This document shows, piece after piece, positions 1,119 through 15,784 of a DNA stretch of 20,572 nucleotides. The notes beneath the pieces were generated by a model that saw only the letters and a program-made list of their open reading frames with translations, did not search any database and was not told where the DNA came from. The stretch's first letter is position 1, and every line of letters begins with the position of its first letter. The position numbers were made by a program, and so were the translations under genes. Origin of the DNA: a virus; the IMG/VR virus record IMGVR_UViG_3300023184_000610, positions 1-20,572 of that record. One strand, given 5' to 3'.

Positions 1119-1170
1119 TCCGTACCCCTAGCGTCTTGGGCGTGCCCGTTCAATCGGGACTAGGGACGAT
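1115..1170 (+). other. Structured intergenic RNA element 1 (T-arm/acceptor-like minihelix)
   Basis: A stem of CCCTAG (1126-1131) with CTAGGG (1160-1165) encloses a 13-base linker and an inner hairpin CCCG-TTCAAT-CGGG (1145-1158), followed by one A and the closing strand, then ACGAT. The order (outer stem, short linker, GC-rich hairpin with a TTCAA loop, closing strand) resembles a tRNA acceptor plus T arm without D and anticodon arms. A competing pairing, CTAGTCC (1115-1121) with GGACTAG (1157-1163), cannot coexist with the outer stem. The element fills the gap between the first two genes. It is not a normal tRNA, and it has no T-tract that would mark a terminator. Confidence 0.5.
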
Positions 1171-1196
1171 AATAAACAAACAACGAAAGGGCAAAA

Positions 1197-1406
1197 ATGA
1201 CAAAATATCGGACACTTATCGGACACCAAAACGAGGACGGGGAAATAATGGAAGAACTAACTTTAGAAAAGATACATTGCTACATTTTAGTTGGAAGAGC
1301 CAACAACAGATTGAACATTGAAGAGACATTGACAGCCGAAGCATTACAAAATCTTTTGACATTGAATTGGGACGCTGTAAATCCAATAAAAGAAACGGGG
1401 AAATAA
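1197..1406 (+). CDS. Hypothetical protein, 69 aa
   Basis: I do not recognise this 69-residue protein. It begins MTKYRTLIGH and is moderately acidic, with a likely alpha-helical half (LTAEALQNLLTLNW). The ATG follows a GAAAGGGC ribosome site with good spacing. Its stop overlaps the next start as TAATG, so the downstream membrane peptide is probably translationally coupled to it. A shadow frame begins at 1106 but lacks a ribosome site and runs through the structured gap. Confidence 0.75.
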   Translation: MTKYRTLIGHQNEDGEIMEELTLEKIHCYILVGRANNRLNIEETLTAEALQNLLTLNWDAVNPIKETGK

Positions 1407-1537
1407 TGAGAGTAATACAATTTATCAACGACTATAAAGAGTTTGTAATCTTTATATGCCTTGCAGGTATTTTTATGACAGGGGTATATCTTGGCAAACT
1501 CATCACAATAAACAACTATGAAAGGGGCAACAAATGA
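1406..1537 (+). CDS. Tiny single-pass membrane protein, 43 aa
   Basis: This 43-residue peptide starts MRVIQFINDYKEF. A hydrophobic stretch follows (about residues 13-31, VIFICLAGIFMTGVYLG), then a short polar tail ending ERGNK. That is one probable transmembrane helix. The start shares TAATG with the previous stop, and the stop shares ATGA with the next start, which supports it as a real gene despite its length. Its role is unknown; small phage membrane peptides often act in superinfection exclusion or as accessory lysis factors, but nothing here shows that. Confidence 0.7.
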   Translation: MRVIQFINDYKEFVIFICLAGIFMTGVYLGKLITINNYERGNK

Positions 1538-1749
1538 ACATATACGAAGTGACAGCCCGAAAGGGACGCTACCTACGAACACTAAGGTTCGCCGATATAA
1601 ACGACATTGAAGCGATGTTCTCGGCAATGTTTAGAGTTCTCAACAAAGCGAAAAGGTATCAAGGGACATGGGCTACAGGTCAAATAGTCCTACGCAATGT
1701 ATCTACAAACACAATCATTGCCCAAATGGGCGAGAAATGGGGCAAGTAA
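1534..1749 (+). CDS. Hypothetical protein, 71 aa
   Basis: This is a 71-residue basic protein beginning MNIYEVTARKGRYL. A beta strand (IYEVTA), a helical segment (INDIEAMFSAMFRVLNKAKR) and a second strand pair (GQIVLRNVSTNTIIAQM) suggest a small beta-alpha-beta fold. Similar beta-helix-beta layouts occur at 3435-3818 and 4026-4223. The ATG follows AAAGGGGC and overlaps the previous stop as ATGA. Its stop overlaps the next ATG as TAATG. I cannot assign a function. Confidence 0.78.
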   Translation: MNIYEVTARKGRYLRTLRFADINDIEAMFSAMFRVLNKAKRYQGTWATGQIVLRNVSTNTIIAQMGEKWGK

Positions 1750-1904
1750 TGCAGATAGACGAAATAGAAACTATAAACAAAATAATGGATGCACTCGGCA
1801 TAGAGTTCGCTTGGATGAAATATCCACAAGGGATTACCTTGCCATTGCAATCTTTAGAAACAATTTTATCCGCAATAAATAACCTACAAAGGGGCAACCA
1901 ATGA
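1749..1904 (+). CDS. Hypothetical protein, 51 aa
   Basis: This is a 51-residue, largely helical protein starting MQIDEIETINKIM. An in-frame ATG exists at 1668, but the extra 27 residues would lie wholly inside the preceding gene and have no ribosome site. The ATG at 1749 overlaps the upstream stop as TAATG, the junction used elsewhere in this run, so I choose it. Its end overlaps the next start as ATGA. I see no recognisable domain. Confidence 0.72.
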   Translation: MQIDEIETINKIMDALGIEFAWMKYPQGITLPLQSLETILSAINNLQRGNQ

Positions 1905-2062
1905 AGGTTTATTATTGCAACAACTGTGGCGACAATAGCGAAATGGCGGAGATTTACCGTTACGAAAACGCACCTTGGACAACAGCAGGTAACGGTCACG
2001 ACGGGTTCATCTGCCGTGACTGTGTGACTATAAAAGAATTGGAACTTGAGGAAGGCAACTGA
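1901..2062 (+). CDS. Small zinc-ribbon protein, 53 aa
   Basis: This 53-residue protein has two CxxC knuckles: CNNC at residues 6-9 and CRDC at 38-41. The spacing of about 28 residues is typical of a single treble-clef or zinc-ribbon finger. It starts MKVYYCNNC after an AAAGGGGC ribosome site and overlaps both neighbours (ATGA upstream, TGATG downstream). A DNA-, RNA- or protein-binding role is likely, with zinc inferred from the four cysteines. Its target is unknown. The tail is acidic. Confidence 0.8.
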   Translation: MKVYYCNNCGDNSEMAEIYRYENAPWTTAGNGHDGFICRDCVTIKELELEEGN

Positions 2063-2259
2063 TGGCTACCGCACAAGAACTAGCACAGAACATTGGCAAA
2101 ACTGCATTGTTACAGGTGGCAGGGTCGGCGTTATGTTTTGAGGTGGAGATAGTGGACGCTCGCCAGCGTTACGGTAATTTAGATTACAAGGTGAAGCCCG
2201 TTATGGGTGAGGGTGAAGCGTGGCATCAGGCGGACGGTATGAAAGTTACCAACGGGTAA
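2062..2259 (+). CDS. Hypothetical protein, 65 aa
   Basis: This 65-residue protein begins MATAQELAQNIGK. A probable helix is followed by beta strands (TALLQVAGSALCFEVEIVDARQ, then LDYKVKPVMG). It may form a small SH3-like or beta-barrel fold, like its neighbour at 2388-2573, but this is weak. Its start overlaps the previous stop as TGATG. It is the last gene before a gap holding a tRNA-like structure and a new promoter, so it probably closes the first transcription segment. Confidence 0.75.
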   Translation: MATAQELAQNIGKTALLQVAGSALCFEVEIVDARQRYGNLDYKVKPVMGEGEAWHQADGMKVTNG

Positions 2260-2269
2260 CAAGTAAGTC

Positions 2270-2311
2270 GGGTGACTGGCAGACATCGGGGTTCAAGTCC
2301 CCGACACCCAC
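2270..2311 (+). other. tRNA-like minihelix element 2 (acceptor plus T arm, tRNA-Leu-like remnant)
   Basis: GGGTG (2270-2274) pairs with CACCC (2305-2309). Inside is a perfect T arm: stem CGGGG (2287-2291), loop TTCAAGT (2292-2298), stem CCCCG (2299-2303). The 5-bp stem, 7-base TTCRA loop and following acceptor strand match a tRNA 3' half. The linker contains TGGCAGAC (2277-2284), which resembles the D-loop end of bacterial tRNA-Leu. No anticodon arm is present and the total is about 42 bases, so it is not a functional standard tRNA. It could be a decayed tRNA, an attachment-site remnant or a structured leader. The layout matches element 1 at 1126-1170, and both are followed by ACGAT. Confidence 0.55.
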
Positions 2312-8351: not shown

Positions 8352-8517
8352 GGGACATTTCCTCGGCAAGCAACTGTCGAAACAAAAGACTGCGTGACAC
8401 ACCACGCTTCTCACAAAGTTTCACAATGTGTTCCATCTGAATGGTGGTCAACCTAAGAGACACCATCTTCGTCGAACGATAGATACCCGCAGGGTCTACG
8501 GTGCGTGTTGCCGCCAT
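8344..8517 (-). CDS. Ribbon-helix-helix-like DNA-binding protein, 57 aa
   Basis: This 57-residue basic protein reads MVSLRLTTIQMEHIVKLCEK, then RGVSRSLLFRQLLAEEM. The pattern of a short beta strand (VSLRL), then a helix, a turn (KRGVSRS) and a second helix is that of Arc/CopG-type ribbon-helix-helix repressors. It overlaps the annealing-protein stop as TAATG and ends inside the nuclease start. It could autoregulate the recombination operon or bind the GTATCAC-type sites. Family assignment is by pattern. Confidence 0.7.
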   Translation of the reverse strand: MAATRTVDPAGIYRSTKMVSLRLTTIQMEHIVKLCEKRGVSRSLLFRQLLAEEMSRV

Positions 8518-9137
8518 TATGCGCCTTCCTTAAATGATTTCAAATCGTTGAACGCTGAACGCAACAACGGAAGATGACTGTTCAATATGATTGCACCTTT
8601 GCCCCAGTTCACTTTCGCATTGTCGGCAACCACTTCAGGGGTGAACCCTGCCTTTTCGCAAGCGGCAATGAACTGTTCAATCTGTTCTTGTGATAGCGGT
8701 GCGTCACCAACAGGTTCTGCTTTGACCACTTTGGGTGCTGGTGTTGCCACTACTGGTGCATGGTTATCCCATTCTTGTTTCGTCCACAACGACAAGCAGA
8801 TACCGAAACGCATAGCAGAGTTACGAATAAAATCTGATACCAGTTCTTTGAGTAGGTCAGGTTTGTTGTGTGCTACCGAGCCGATACCGAGACGGCGTAC
8901 ACCTTGCACTGTGAGCCAGCCTGCCATGTGTGCCATGCCGTTCTCTACACGGTACGCAGGTAAACCGTTCACGTCAAATGCTGTTGGTTCCCATGTCCAT
9001 TCGCTGTCAATTTCGATAAGCATTTTGGTTACATCAGCATGACCTACGAAGTCAAGTTGGATTCCACCTTTAGGTAATTTACCTACAAGTGATTTGTCTG
9101 GCACACCGTATGCGCCAAGGATTTCATCTAGTTTCAT
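8517..9137 (-). CDS. Single-strand annealing protein (Rad52/ERF-like)
   Basis: This 206-residue protein has an N-terminal annealing core (about 1-125): KGGIQLDFVGHADVTKMLIE, DSEWTWEPTAFDVNGLPAYR, GWLTVQGVRRLGIG, then FIRNSAMRFGICLSLWTK. The LTV-x-GV-x-R-x-G-x-G and R-N-A/S-AMRFG blocks are hallmarks of Rad52/ERF-type phage annealing proteins. A P/A-rich linker (about 130-148) leads to a smaller helical C-terminal region. It overlaps the exonuclease end as ATGA and follows that gene, the classic annealing/exonuclease pair that anneals complementary single strands. No family number is asserted. Confidence 0.88.
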   Translation of the reverse strand: MKLDEILGAYGVPDKSLVGKLPKGGIQLDFVGHADVTKMLIEIDSEWTWEPTAFDVNGLPAYRVENGMAHMAGWLTVQGVRRLGIGSVAHNKPDLLKELVSDFIRNSAMRFGICLSLWTKQEWDNHAPVVATPAPKVVKAEPVGDAPLSQEQIEQFIAACEKAGFTPEVVADNAKVNWGKGAIILNSHLPLLRSAFNDLKSFKEGA

Positions 9138-10093
9138 ACTCGTTCCCCTTTCAAGAGAAGCGTTCTATTGGTTACTTGCTTACTATATTTTTCTGCAAGA
9201 GCAGGCTCATTCATCTTCAACGATTTAATATCCAACGAAGCCCACGACTTACCCTTCCATGTTGCAATGATTGTTCCATCGACAGTAGCAACTTCGTTCG
9301 GTCCAATCAAATCGCACAGTTCTGCTTTCAACCTGTCCTCAATTTCACCGTACGCTTTTAGTTCTGACTTCACATGCTTCAGTTGTGCAACCAACTCCTT
9401 AGCCGTAGACGGAAGTTCAATAGACGTAGGTGCAGGCTTCTGGTAACGAGCGGTAATAGTTTCATAAGACCAATGGACTCCTTCAGGGGTCATACCCAAA
9501 TCAATTGCGGTCAACCATTTGGCAACCTTCTCACAGTGTTCTTTAATCTCACCATCGCTGATGGTTTGCTGATAGATGTACAACACCATTGTTGAGTCGA
9601 ACACAGCCCACGTAATCTGTCTTACGTCAGAACAGATGGCTTGTTGAATACCTTGAATACGCCAGTAGTCAGGTAGTTCACCTTGCCATTCACGGTTCAT
9701 CGTTTTAATTTCCAACACCTTACGTTCGGTGTCTGATTCGTAGAAACCGTCCAAAGTGGAAATCATCCGCGCACCATCATCTGTTTCTGCAACAAACATT
9801 TCTTCAGGGGTGATGTAATCGATACCTGTTTTATCTCTAGCCCATTCCAATACGAACGGTTCTAAACGGTTACCGCGTTCCATTGCAGGGTTCGGAGGGA
9901 TAGGTGCAGGGGGTATATCACCTAACAGTTCCGCAGCATATTTGTCTGCTGGCACGAATGGATGTAGCCCGTAGATTGCGGCTACTGCTGACGCTGATAC
10001 TCGTTTACGTTTCTGCTTATCCCAGAAGCGTATGTCTAACCAGTCTTGTTCGCCGTGGGTTGGTTTGGTAATGCGGTAACGTGTGATTTGCAT
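9134..10093 (-). CDS. YqaJ-like phage exonuclease/recombinase
   Basis: This 319-residue protein carries the YqaJ/PD-(D/E)XK exonuclease signature: AMERGNRLEPFVLEWA (E78), STLDGFY (D115), VLEIKT (E128-x-K130) and YWRIQGIQQAI (Q147). Around residues 225-265 it has a coiled-coil-like segment (LVAQLKHVKSELKAYGEIED), then a WKGKS...LDIKSLK tail. It resects double-stranded ends, feeding the annealing protein encoded just after it. It is the first gene of its operon, with GAAAGGGAAC near the ATG and a promoter about 35 bp upstream. Confidence 0.9.
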   Translation of the reverse strand: MQITRYRITKPTHGEQDWLDIRFWDKQKRKRVSASAVAAIYGLHPFVPADKYAAELLGDIPPAPIPPNPAMERGNRLEPFVLEWARDKTGIDYITPEEMFVAETDDGARMISTLDGFYESDTERKVLEIKTMNREWQGELPDYWRIQGIQQAICSDVRQITWAVFDSTMVLYIYQQTISDGEIKEHCEKVAKWLTAIDLGMTPEGVHWSYETITARYQKPAPTSIELPSTAKELVAQLKHVKSELKAYGEIEDRLKAELCDLIGPNEVATVDGTIIATWKGKSWASLDIKSLKMNEPALAEKYSKQVTNRTLLLKGERV

Positions 10094-14086: not shown

Positions 14087-15784
14087 CTATCCGATTGGGT
14101 ATCTAATAATAACAATTCCTGAACCGCCAGCACCAGAAGTAGCACCACTGGAGTTGCCTGAACCACCACCACCACCACCACCAAGATTGGCTGTACCAGC
14201 AGTTGCGTTATTAGATGTTCCTCCAGTACCACCACCGCCCGAACCTCCAGCACCAGCAGTGCCAGTACTTTCGTTAAAAGCACTACCACCACCACCACCA
14301 GCGTAGGTTACAGATGAACCAGTAATTGATGATGCTGTTCCAGCACCGCCTGCACCACCGTTAGAACCGCTACCAGCAGAACCTCCAGAACTTGCGCCGC
14401 CGCCACCGCCACCAGCATTACTTGGGTTTGCACCACCAGAACCTGCGCCGCCAGCGTTGCCTTGACCGCTAGTGCCAGTTCCAGCAGAACCACTGTTATT
14501 GTTTCCTGCACCACCACCTCCACCTGAACCGCCGTTGCCAGCAGCACCAGATGAAAAAGATTGTCCTCCGCCTCCACCTCCGCCAGACGAAGTAATAGCA
14601 CTAAAAACGGAACTAGAACCAGCATTACCACGACCAGCAACAACCCCTGTACCGCCTGCGCCAACAGTAACGGTATATGAAGTGCCTGCTGTTAAAGATT
14701 GTGTGCCTGTGAGCATGCCACCAGCACCACCACCACCGCCTCTGTCGGTTCCGCCTGCTGCTCCACCTGCGACAACCAAATACTCTGCGTTCACTAACGA
14801 AGGAGCCGCCACCGTAACAGTCACCGTACCAGTAGCCGTAAACGACCAAACCGTGTAATCACCCGAAGTAGACGAACTACCACCTGTAGCCGTAATTGTT
14901 AAACCTGTTGCATTTGCTGTAAGATAACGAAAAACAACAATACCTGAACCGCCGCTGCCAGCCACCCAAGGAGCAGAACGCTGACCAATGCCACCGCCAC
15001 CTGAACCAGTATTTGCTGAACCACTAGTAGGTGTACCTGTTCCTACAGCACCATTACCACCGATGCTTGAACCGCCAGTACCAGCAGTACCGTGCGCTCC
15101 CGCACCGCCACCTGCTGCGTATGTTACTGAAGCCCCCGTGATTGAAGATGCTAAACCAGCACCACCGTTGCCACCCAACAAAGCCGCACCGTTGCCGCCA
15201 GCCGCACCTGCACCACCACCACCGCCACCTGCGGATTGTGCAGCCGCGGATGGTCCCCAACTAGCACCACCAGCATTACCTTGACCTGCCGTACCTGCTA
15301 CAGCAGAACCAGCACTATCAAACCCACCACCACCGCCAGATGAACCACCTGTGCGACCAGCGTTGAATGAACCATCACGGTTTCCACCACCACCACCACC
15401 AGTGGAAGTGACGGAACCAAAAACAGAATCCGAACCGTTGTTCGCTTGACTTGTGTTGTCTACGGCAGTTCCGCTGCCACCCGCACCAACCGTGACTGTG
15501 TAAGAACCAGGTAGAAAAGATTGTGTGCCTGTGCGCATTCCTCCTGCACCACCACCACCACCAGTAGAGTTGCCACCCGCACCACCACCTGCAACAATTA
15601 AATAATCTACATCAACAACAGCCTGCGAACCAAACGACAAAGTACCAGTCGCACTAAAAGTGTGAACCTTATAAAACACGCCAGCAACAGAAACATACGA
15701 CTCGATACCACCATTAAAAGTTTGTTGCAACTTGTAACGAGGATTTGCGTTCACATACTGTGAAACTTTTGTTCTACTACGCAT
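14087..15784 (-). CDS. Glycine-rich tail fibre/adhesin, 565 aa (two modules)
   Basis: This 565-residue protein has two glycine-rich modules (about 50-290 and about 330-565). Each opens with a beta strand like VDYLIVAGGGAGG or AEYLVVAGGAAGG, then GGGG-rich repeats, and ends in SGIVVFRYLT or SGIVIIRYPIG. Between lies a beta linker (DYTVWSFTATGTVTVTV). The N-terminus shares RSR-x2-V-x-Q-x-V-x3-NP with the next gene upstream. Poly-glycine-II-type adhesins of this kind cap phage fibres and recognise host receptors. It shares TAATG with the upstream gene. Modules were read by eye. Confidence 0.85.
   Translation of the reverse strand: MRSRTKVSQYVNANPRYKLQQTFNGGIESYVSVAGVFYKVHTFSATGTLSFGSQAVVDVDYLIVAGGGAGGNSTGGGGGAGGMRTGTQSFLPGSYTVTVGAGGSGTAVDNTSQANNGSDSVFGSVTSTGGGGGGNRDGSFNAGRTGGSSGGGGGFDSAGSAVAGTAGQGNAGGASWGPSAAAQSAGGGGGGAGAAGGNGAALLGGNGGAGLASSITGASVTYAAGGGAGAHGTAGTGGSSIGGNGAVGTGTPTSGSANTGSGGGGIGQRSAPWVAGSGGSGIVVFRYLTANATGLTITATGGSSSTSGDYTVWSFTATGTVTVTVAAPSLVNAEYLVVAGGAAGGTDRGGGGGAGGMLTGTQSLTAGTSYTVTVGAGGTGVVAGRGNAGSSSVFSAITSSGGGGGGGQSFSSGAAGNGGSGGGGGAGNNNSGSAGTGTSGQGNAGGAGSGGANPSNAGGGGGGASSGGSAGSGSNGGAGGAGTASSITGSSVTYAGGGGGSAFNESTGTAGAGGSGGGGTGGTSNNATAGTANLGGGGGGGSGNSSGATSGAGGSGIVIIRYPIG

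Follow-up and report, generated by a model that had tools for sequence, protein, structure and literature searches.

Plant RNA viruses end their genomes in tRNA-like structures with an aminoacylatable CCA, and MALAT1 ends in the tRNA-like mascRNA, which is cleaved by RNase P/Z and has a counterpart, menRNA, in NEAT1. In T4-type phages, PeSL cassettes repeat a structure together with a promoter between genes, the structures being terminators. In mitochondria, RNase P and RNase Z excise tRNAs from polycistronic RNA and free the mRNAs (PMC8437803). Three enzymes, RNase P, RNase Z and the one that adds CCA, use the elbow as the reference point for measuring the acceptor-T stack (PMC4919913; PMC12710915). 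The elbow is clamped by RNase Z, which CCA antagonises, and it is also where RNase P begins its measurement along the T-acceptor stack (PMC4919913); the RNase P protein touches leader positions -8 to -3, and N-1, N73 and RCC matter in cleavage (PMC12710915).

We analyzed a 20,572-nucleotide stretch of viral DNA, IMG/VR record IMGVR_UViG_3300023184_000610 (the window), in which a preliminary description made from the sequence alone had noted two tRNA-like elements with a common layout. Both sites encode conserved structured RNAs on the sense strand, a conclusion that we hold with near certainty; they belong to two families and mimic the acceptor/T-arm half and the elbow of tRNA. Both families sit just past stop codons in phage gene runs and have no anticodon arm, for which a 40-nt element is too short. 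These are two apparently undescribed families of ~40-nt RNA structures located between genes of viruses of actinobacteria. We found no description of either family in the literature searched, which covered a minority of subscription papers, and an earlier description may exist; neither a study of the diversity of mycobacteriophages nor one of 104 candidate RNAs mentions tRNA-like elements.

RESULTS

Two tRNA-like elements in the window

All features of the two elements are on the plus strand. Element 1 occupies 1126-1165, as placed by a descriptor scan, covariance model R2 and a 25-sequence comparison, and reads CCCTAG-CGTCTTGGGCGTG-CCCG-TTCAAT-CGGG-A-CTAGGG, followed by ACGAT. An acceptor-like stem (1126-1131/1160-1165) encloses a D-arm-like hairpin (1132-1142), then TG, and a T-like arm (1145-1158) with a TTCAAT loop (1149-1154). 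A 7-nt spacer (1119-1125), typical for the family, separates the element from the stop codon at 1116-1118, and 31 nt lie between its end and the next ATG (1197). The AC dinucleotide 3' of the acceptor strand (1166-1167) is R73 C74-like in the family-1 alignment, where the R73-type position is A or G and the next an invariant C in all 25 sequences.

Element 2 (2270-2309; descriptor scan, covariance model R1 and alignments A1 and A3) reads GGGTG-ACTGGCAGACA-TCGGGG-TTCAAGT-CCCCGA-CACCC, then ACGAT. It consists of an acceptor-like stem (2270-2274/2305-2309), a linker (2275-2285) with GG at 2278-2279, and a T stem (2286-2291/2299-2304) closing a T loop (2292-2298). It starts 10 nt (2260-2269) past the stop codon at 2257-2259, against a family median of 9 nt in annotated phages, and ends 78 nt ahead of the next ATG (2388). 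Family-2 end counts mark the AC at 2310-2311 as R73 C74-like. The element had been given a T stem of 5 bp, and both elements a lone A after the hairpin. A1159 of element 1 is indeed unpaired; the corresponding A of element 2 pairs with U2286, and the T stem has 6 bp.

Downstream of element 2, at 2327-2355 on the plus strand, is a cassette that is promoter-like by consensus only: TTGACA, a 17-bp spacer and TACGGT, with a palindrome, TAGTA-TTCG-TACTA, inside the spacer at 2338-2351. The cassette is kept 3' of the element in nine IMG/VR contigs, several of which differ upstream, and it could be a repressed promoter that travels with the element.

By one sequence alone, neither element is beyond chance, and the comparative evidence is decisive. 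The elements had the top scores, 20 and 18, in a descriptor scan of both strands of the window, the third being 13; 14 of 200 windows resampled from a first-order Markov model contained a match scoring at least 17. Single-sequence folding z-scores of the elements ranged from -0.6 to -2.0, without significance. ARAGORN found no tRNA gene in the window, and no Rfam family exceeded its threshold on the whole window, the element region or phage Papyrus; the best match to element 2, mascRNA-menRNA (RF01684), was sub-threshold (18.0 versus 42.5 bits, E 1.4). Both elements are present where they had been described. R1 matches the window at 2266-2313 with 69.7 bits (E 9e-18) and R2 at 1122-1169 with 68.1 bits (E 5e-16), the window copy itself being among the sequences used to build R2, and such elements are far commoner than had been reported.

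Elsewhere in the window, a long stretch with no evident gene holds C-rich runs together with near-repeats (CCTACCTGCCAGTAAC, TACCTGCAAGTAAC) at 545-680, and a strong promoter-like TTGACA-TATAGT lies downstream of these near 862-890. On the minus strand at 8517-10093, a single-strand annealing protein adjoins a RecE-like exonuclease, a phage recombination pair.

Family 2: covariation and a linker/T-loop pseudoknot

Family 2 has a 5-bp acceptor stem, an 11-nt linker with an invariant GG, a 6-bp T stem and a GTTCRANYC T loop. Its copies are unannotated and intergenic, usually 5-15 per genome, in Mycobacterium, Streptomyces and Gordonia phages and in IMG/VR contigs. An exact search with a 26-nt sequence, the 3' half of element 2, returned nine IMG/VR contigs with a complete element. 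BLAST found similar sequence in 83 to 95 phage records, mainly Streptomyces and Mycobacterium phages, the weakest of these matches being unrelated tRNA genes or chance; matched records usually carry several copies each, in unannotated stretches. R1 gave 311 matches, partly redundant, from 70 sources.

We chose a test set on the linker and loop alone, with no pairing required. The outcome was bimodal: 47 of 58 sequences formed the full acceptor stem (5/5) and at least 5 of the 6 pairs of the T stem, and the other 11 looked random. In the alignment of the 47 (A1), 99.8% of the cells paired, 11 of 14 pairs showed double-sided changes, and none of 500 shuffles was as good. When mutual information was calculated for all column pairs, the true pairs ranked at the top, and three contacts outside the selection were revealed: linker 11-17, and a pseudoknot of linker 18-19 with T-loop 32-33. 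The first of these, C2276-G2282 in the window, closes a D-loop-like TGGCA loop, covaries as C-G, G-C and A-U, and is paired in 100% of A1 and A3. The pseudoknot, found by this unbiased measure, consists in the window of A2283-U2298 and C2284-G2297 (within 2283-2298), so that a single pair plus the pseudoknot closes the linker. Of 182 unique GGCA-type copies that could be scored, 180 keep both pseudoknot pairs, in seven letter combinations (AC:GU, GC:GC, CC:GG, UC:GA, AG:CU and two wobble forms). Copies at one gene pair of three Streptomyces phages differ in their linker/loop letters, which go from AC:GU through UC:GG to CC:GG, and their T stem changes on both sides, from UCGGGG to CCUGGG. In the T arm with its GTTCRANYC loop, positions G25, G26, T27, T28, C29, A31 and C34 are invariant in A1, and the linker GG is invariant as well. 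GG was present in 66 of 66 linkers selected without it, and it may sit so as to contact T55 C56, as GG in the D region of tRNA does.

Several sequences depart from this pattern or lie outside the main set of phages. A linkerless version of the element lies in a gene gap of Mycobacterium phage Predator (~15401-15431): a 12-bp hairpin, perfectly paired and closed by a TTCGACT T loop, after which come GCGA and a further hairpin. Mycobacterium phage Ghoulboy has a variant at 388-428, GCCCG TATGGTGATC GGGGAGG TTCGATT, directly after a stop codon and with TTGACA next; TTGACA also follows a longer, ~84-nt tRNA-like sequence in Arthrobacter phage MeganNoll (near 340-425). A Corynebacterium aurimucosum plasmid carries a single element-2-like sequence (601-643) upstream of repA, with one T-stem mismatch and a hairpin after it, and five more Corynebacterium plasmid records match. 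At 25163-25245 and 28674-28764 of Streptomyces phage Amela, the tRNA-Arg and tRNA-Trp called by ARAGORN overlap elements and are probably false tRNA calls. The Gemmatimonadota MAG CP070815.1 has several copies beside phage-like genes in its first ~5 kb, and a stretch of N separates them from the ordinary bacterial genes that follow; these copies are likely phage sequence mis-joined to the chromosome.

Searched against 396 genomes from the phylum of an actinobacterium, R1 had strong matches in three. Most of the weak matches, at ~25-32 bits, were 80-91 nt long, and those of this length that were checked by ARAGORN were tRNA-Leu genes, in which the anticodon and variable arms coincide with an insertion relative to the model. 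Because R1 weakly matches actinobacterial tRNA-Leu genes in this way, family 2 resembles a tRNA-Leu stripped of those two arms, which bears out a resemblance noted earlier. Family 2 may thus have come from tRNA-Leu by descent or by convergence.

Family 1: a second, D-hairpin-bearing family

Family 1 has the layout of family 2 but with a small hairpin in the place of the D arm, so that the linker of element 1 is unlike that of element 2; its T loop is the 6-nt TTCAAT, and it has no constant GG. In one contig there are 8 copies, and the isolated phages searched gave no good match. We chose 25 sequences on the linker and loop alone, and all 25 formed every acceptor pair (6/6) and every T-like pair (4/4) as well as the pair of the D hairpin. 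All 13 pairs were kept, 8 of them with double-sided changes, and none of 500 shuffles matched this. Partners were kept for acceptors CCCUAG, CCCCAG, CCCUAC and CCCGUG and for T-like stems including CCCG, GCUC, CCGA, GCGA, CGGA, UGAC and ACCG; the outer three C-G pairs are uninformative either way because they never vary. The preliminary description had proposed that a selected structure should show compensatory changes in related phages, and both families show them.

Position between genes, ends and downstream hairpins

Among the 56 elements of seven annotated phages, 52 were in same-strand gaps and none was antisense; the remaining 4 probably touch mis-annotated starts. The elements in these phages began a median of 9 nt past the stop codon and 43 nt ahead of the next start, with some copies 35-52 nt away from the stop. 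Spacing from the stop codon was mostly 6-10 nt in the IMG/VR family-1 copies.

The first acceptor pair is G:C in 203 of 215 family-2 copies and C1:G72 in family 1. The family-2 flank has R73 in 204, C74 in 207 and C75 in only 4 of 211 copies. C75 is likewise absent from both window copies, so that neither encodes a CCA end; CCA is not encoded by every bacterial tRNA gene. The R-C part of the ACGAT that had been described after both elements is conserved, and the rest of it is not. Pairing of N-1 with N73 was rare in family 2, although the stem definition itself lowers this count, and the acceptor-T stack is 11-12 bp, often 11 rather than 12.

Of 284 family-2 copies, 135 had a hairpin of at least 6 bp in the 36 nt that follow, compared with ~22 in shuffles and 78 of 282 upstream control stretches, and 121 of the 135 begin 2-5 nt past the acceptor. 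Downstream hairpins of at least 5 bp were present in 23 of 39 family-1 copies, 22 of them beginning 3-4 nt past the element. This usual hairpin place is empty in both window copies. No T run, as an intrinsic terminator would have, was seen in the sequences downstream of the elements.

DISCUSSION

The elements may form a dedicated tRNA-mimic punctuation system in actinobacterial phages and their metagenomic relatives, and we put the probability of this reading at roughly 0.5. Anticodon-less elbows of two structurally distinct families, locked by a pseudoknot in family 2 and numbering up to ~15 per genome, would recruit host tRNA-processing enzymes and split mRNA into units with defined ends. 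We lean slightly toward cutting of the elements by host RNase P and/or RNase Z as the means by which polycistronic phage mRNAs are punctuated. In this mechanism, viral mRNAs would be cut or capped at the elements after the enzyme reads the acceptor-T stack, the elbow and the end determinants, which would be G1:C72, R73 C74 and an unpaired N-1 in family 2 and R73 C74 without C75 in both families. The upstream mRNA would be left ending shortly past its own stop codon, or would keep the tRNA-like fold at its 3' end. In many copies, the start of the downstream mRNA would lie a few nucleotides ahead of a second hairpin, which would shield the new 5' end. The elements probably descend from a class II tRNA, for example tRNA-Leu, or have come to resemble one by convergence.

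The case for processing is argued from anatomy, the conserved features being the ones that RNase P, RNase Z and the CCA-adding enzyme read. Avoidance of C75 suits RNase Z, an enzyme that CCA blocks. RNase P is suited by G1:C72 and R73 C74 together with a leader that is short and free, and a hairpin a few nucleotides past the element is what the shielding of a new 5' end would call for. The same-strand placement just past stop codons, the weak R1 matches to tRNA-Leu genes and the sub-threshold match to mascRNA, a product of RNase P/Z, also speak for processing. Several features weaken the case. The near-constant absence of C75 would weaken the RCC contact of RNase P, the C1:G72 pair and 6-nt T loop make family 1 a less canonical substrate, and the helical stack is often 11 bp instead of 12. 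The protection argument is weakened by the lack of a hairpin in the window copies and of a 6-bp hairpin in about half of the family-2 copies, and by the hairpins in 78 of 282 upstream controls.

Because cutting by RNase P/Z is inferred from anatomy, the chief rival is an uncut tRNA-like fold that acts as a stable knot against 3'-to-5' or 5'-to-3' exonucleases (PNPase, RNase J) and stabilizes each cistron differently. A compact, pseudoknot-locked fold right past stop codons, often with a second hairpin, is what such a block would look like, but a roadblock alone needs neither G1:C72, R73 C74 and C75 avoidance nor the T-loop consensus and elbow GG, and we regard this as possible and no stronger than a tentative alternative. 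The narrow post-stop spacing in both families, which puts the start of the element near the leading edge of a ribosome with the stop codon in its A site, could also mean that the element touches the terminating ribosome and helps it to terminate, recycle or re-initiate at the next gene. The same spacing would be expected for mere ribosome clearance or a short RNase P leader, and some copies lie 35-52 nt past the stop, so we consider a ribosomal role unlikely.

It is more improbable still that these are mainly mobile regulatory or recombination cassettes that aid gene shuffling, like T4-type promoter-stem-loop cassettes. Element 2 and its promoter-like sequence do follow different upstream sequences, and many near-identical copies occur per genome, but recombination would favor sequence identity, whereas every stem and the pseudoknot carry compensatory changes, even at one gene pair, which shows selection on RNA shape. 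The likeness of the T arm and of the 3' strand of the acceptor to the end of a tRNA, and the similarity to tRNA-Leu, might suggest tRNA remnants, as proposed earlier, or the core of an attachment site with a match to the 3' end of a host tRNA gene. We give this very little credence: remnants find no support because pairing is actively kept while stem letters vary freely, there are many copies per genome, the 5' strand and linker are also conserved, and carriers include phages with serine integrases. Among candidates tried, attachment site, tRNA remnant, intrinsic terminator, DNA-binding site and anticodon-nuclease decoy were rejected, given the many copies, the compensatory changes, the lack of a T run and the lack of an anticodon.

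Two families of structured RNA are added by these results, and many copies of one of them lie unannotated in laboratory phages that are well studied; the tertiary fold shows how little of a tRNA suffices to keep the elbow. If the elements are processed, double-stranded DNA phages would have evolved a trick that animal mitochondria also use, a proposal directly testable in laboratory hosts; the elements would be ready-made, compact RNA-processing parts and would allow better annotation of gene starts in these phages.

The elements share viral tRNA mimicry with the tRNA-like structures of plant RNA viruses, but they have no CCA and lie between genes of DNA phages. Element 2 with its promoter-like cassette is reminiscent of the PeSL cassettes; unlike the terminators of those cassettes, the elements described here are not followed by a T run. 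Actinobacterial tRNA-Leu has a TGGCAGAC-like D-loop segment, the T arm GTTCGAGTC and a similar 3' flank; the phage elements differ in lacking anticodon and variable arms and in pairing linker bases with T-loop bases 59-60. The mascRNA-menRNA modules, which also combine an acceptor with a T arm and direct RNase P/Z processing of the host transcript, are longer, eukaryotic and present once per transcript. Mitochondrial tRNA punctuation differs in that the phage units are ~40 nt, have no anticodon arm, are unusable as tRNAs, carry a linker/T-loop pseudoknot in family 2 and are processed only by proposal; in both systems, tRNA-shaped units stand between open reading frames on the coding strand, and the two enzymes that we propose here are the same.
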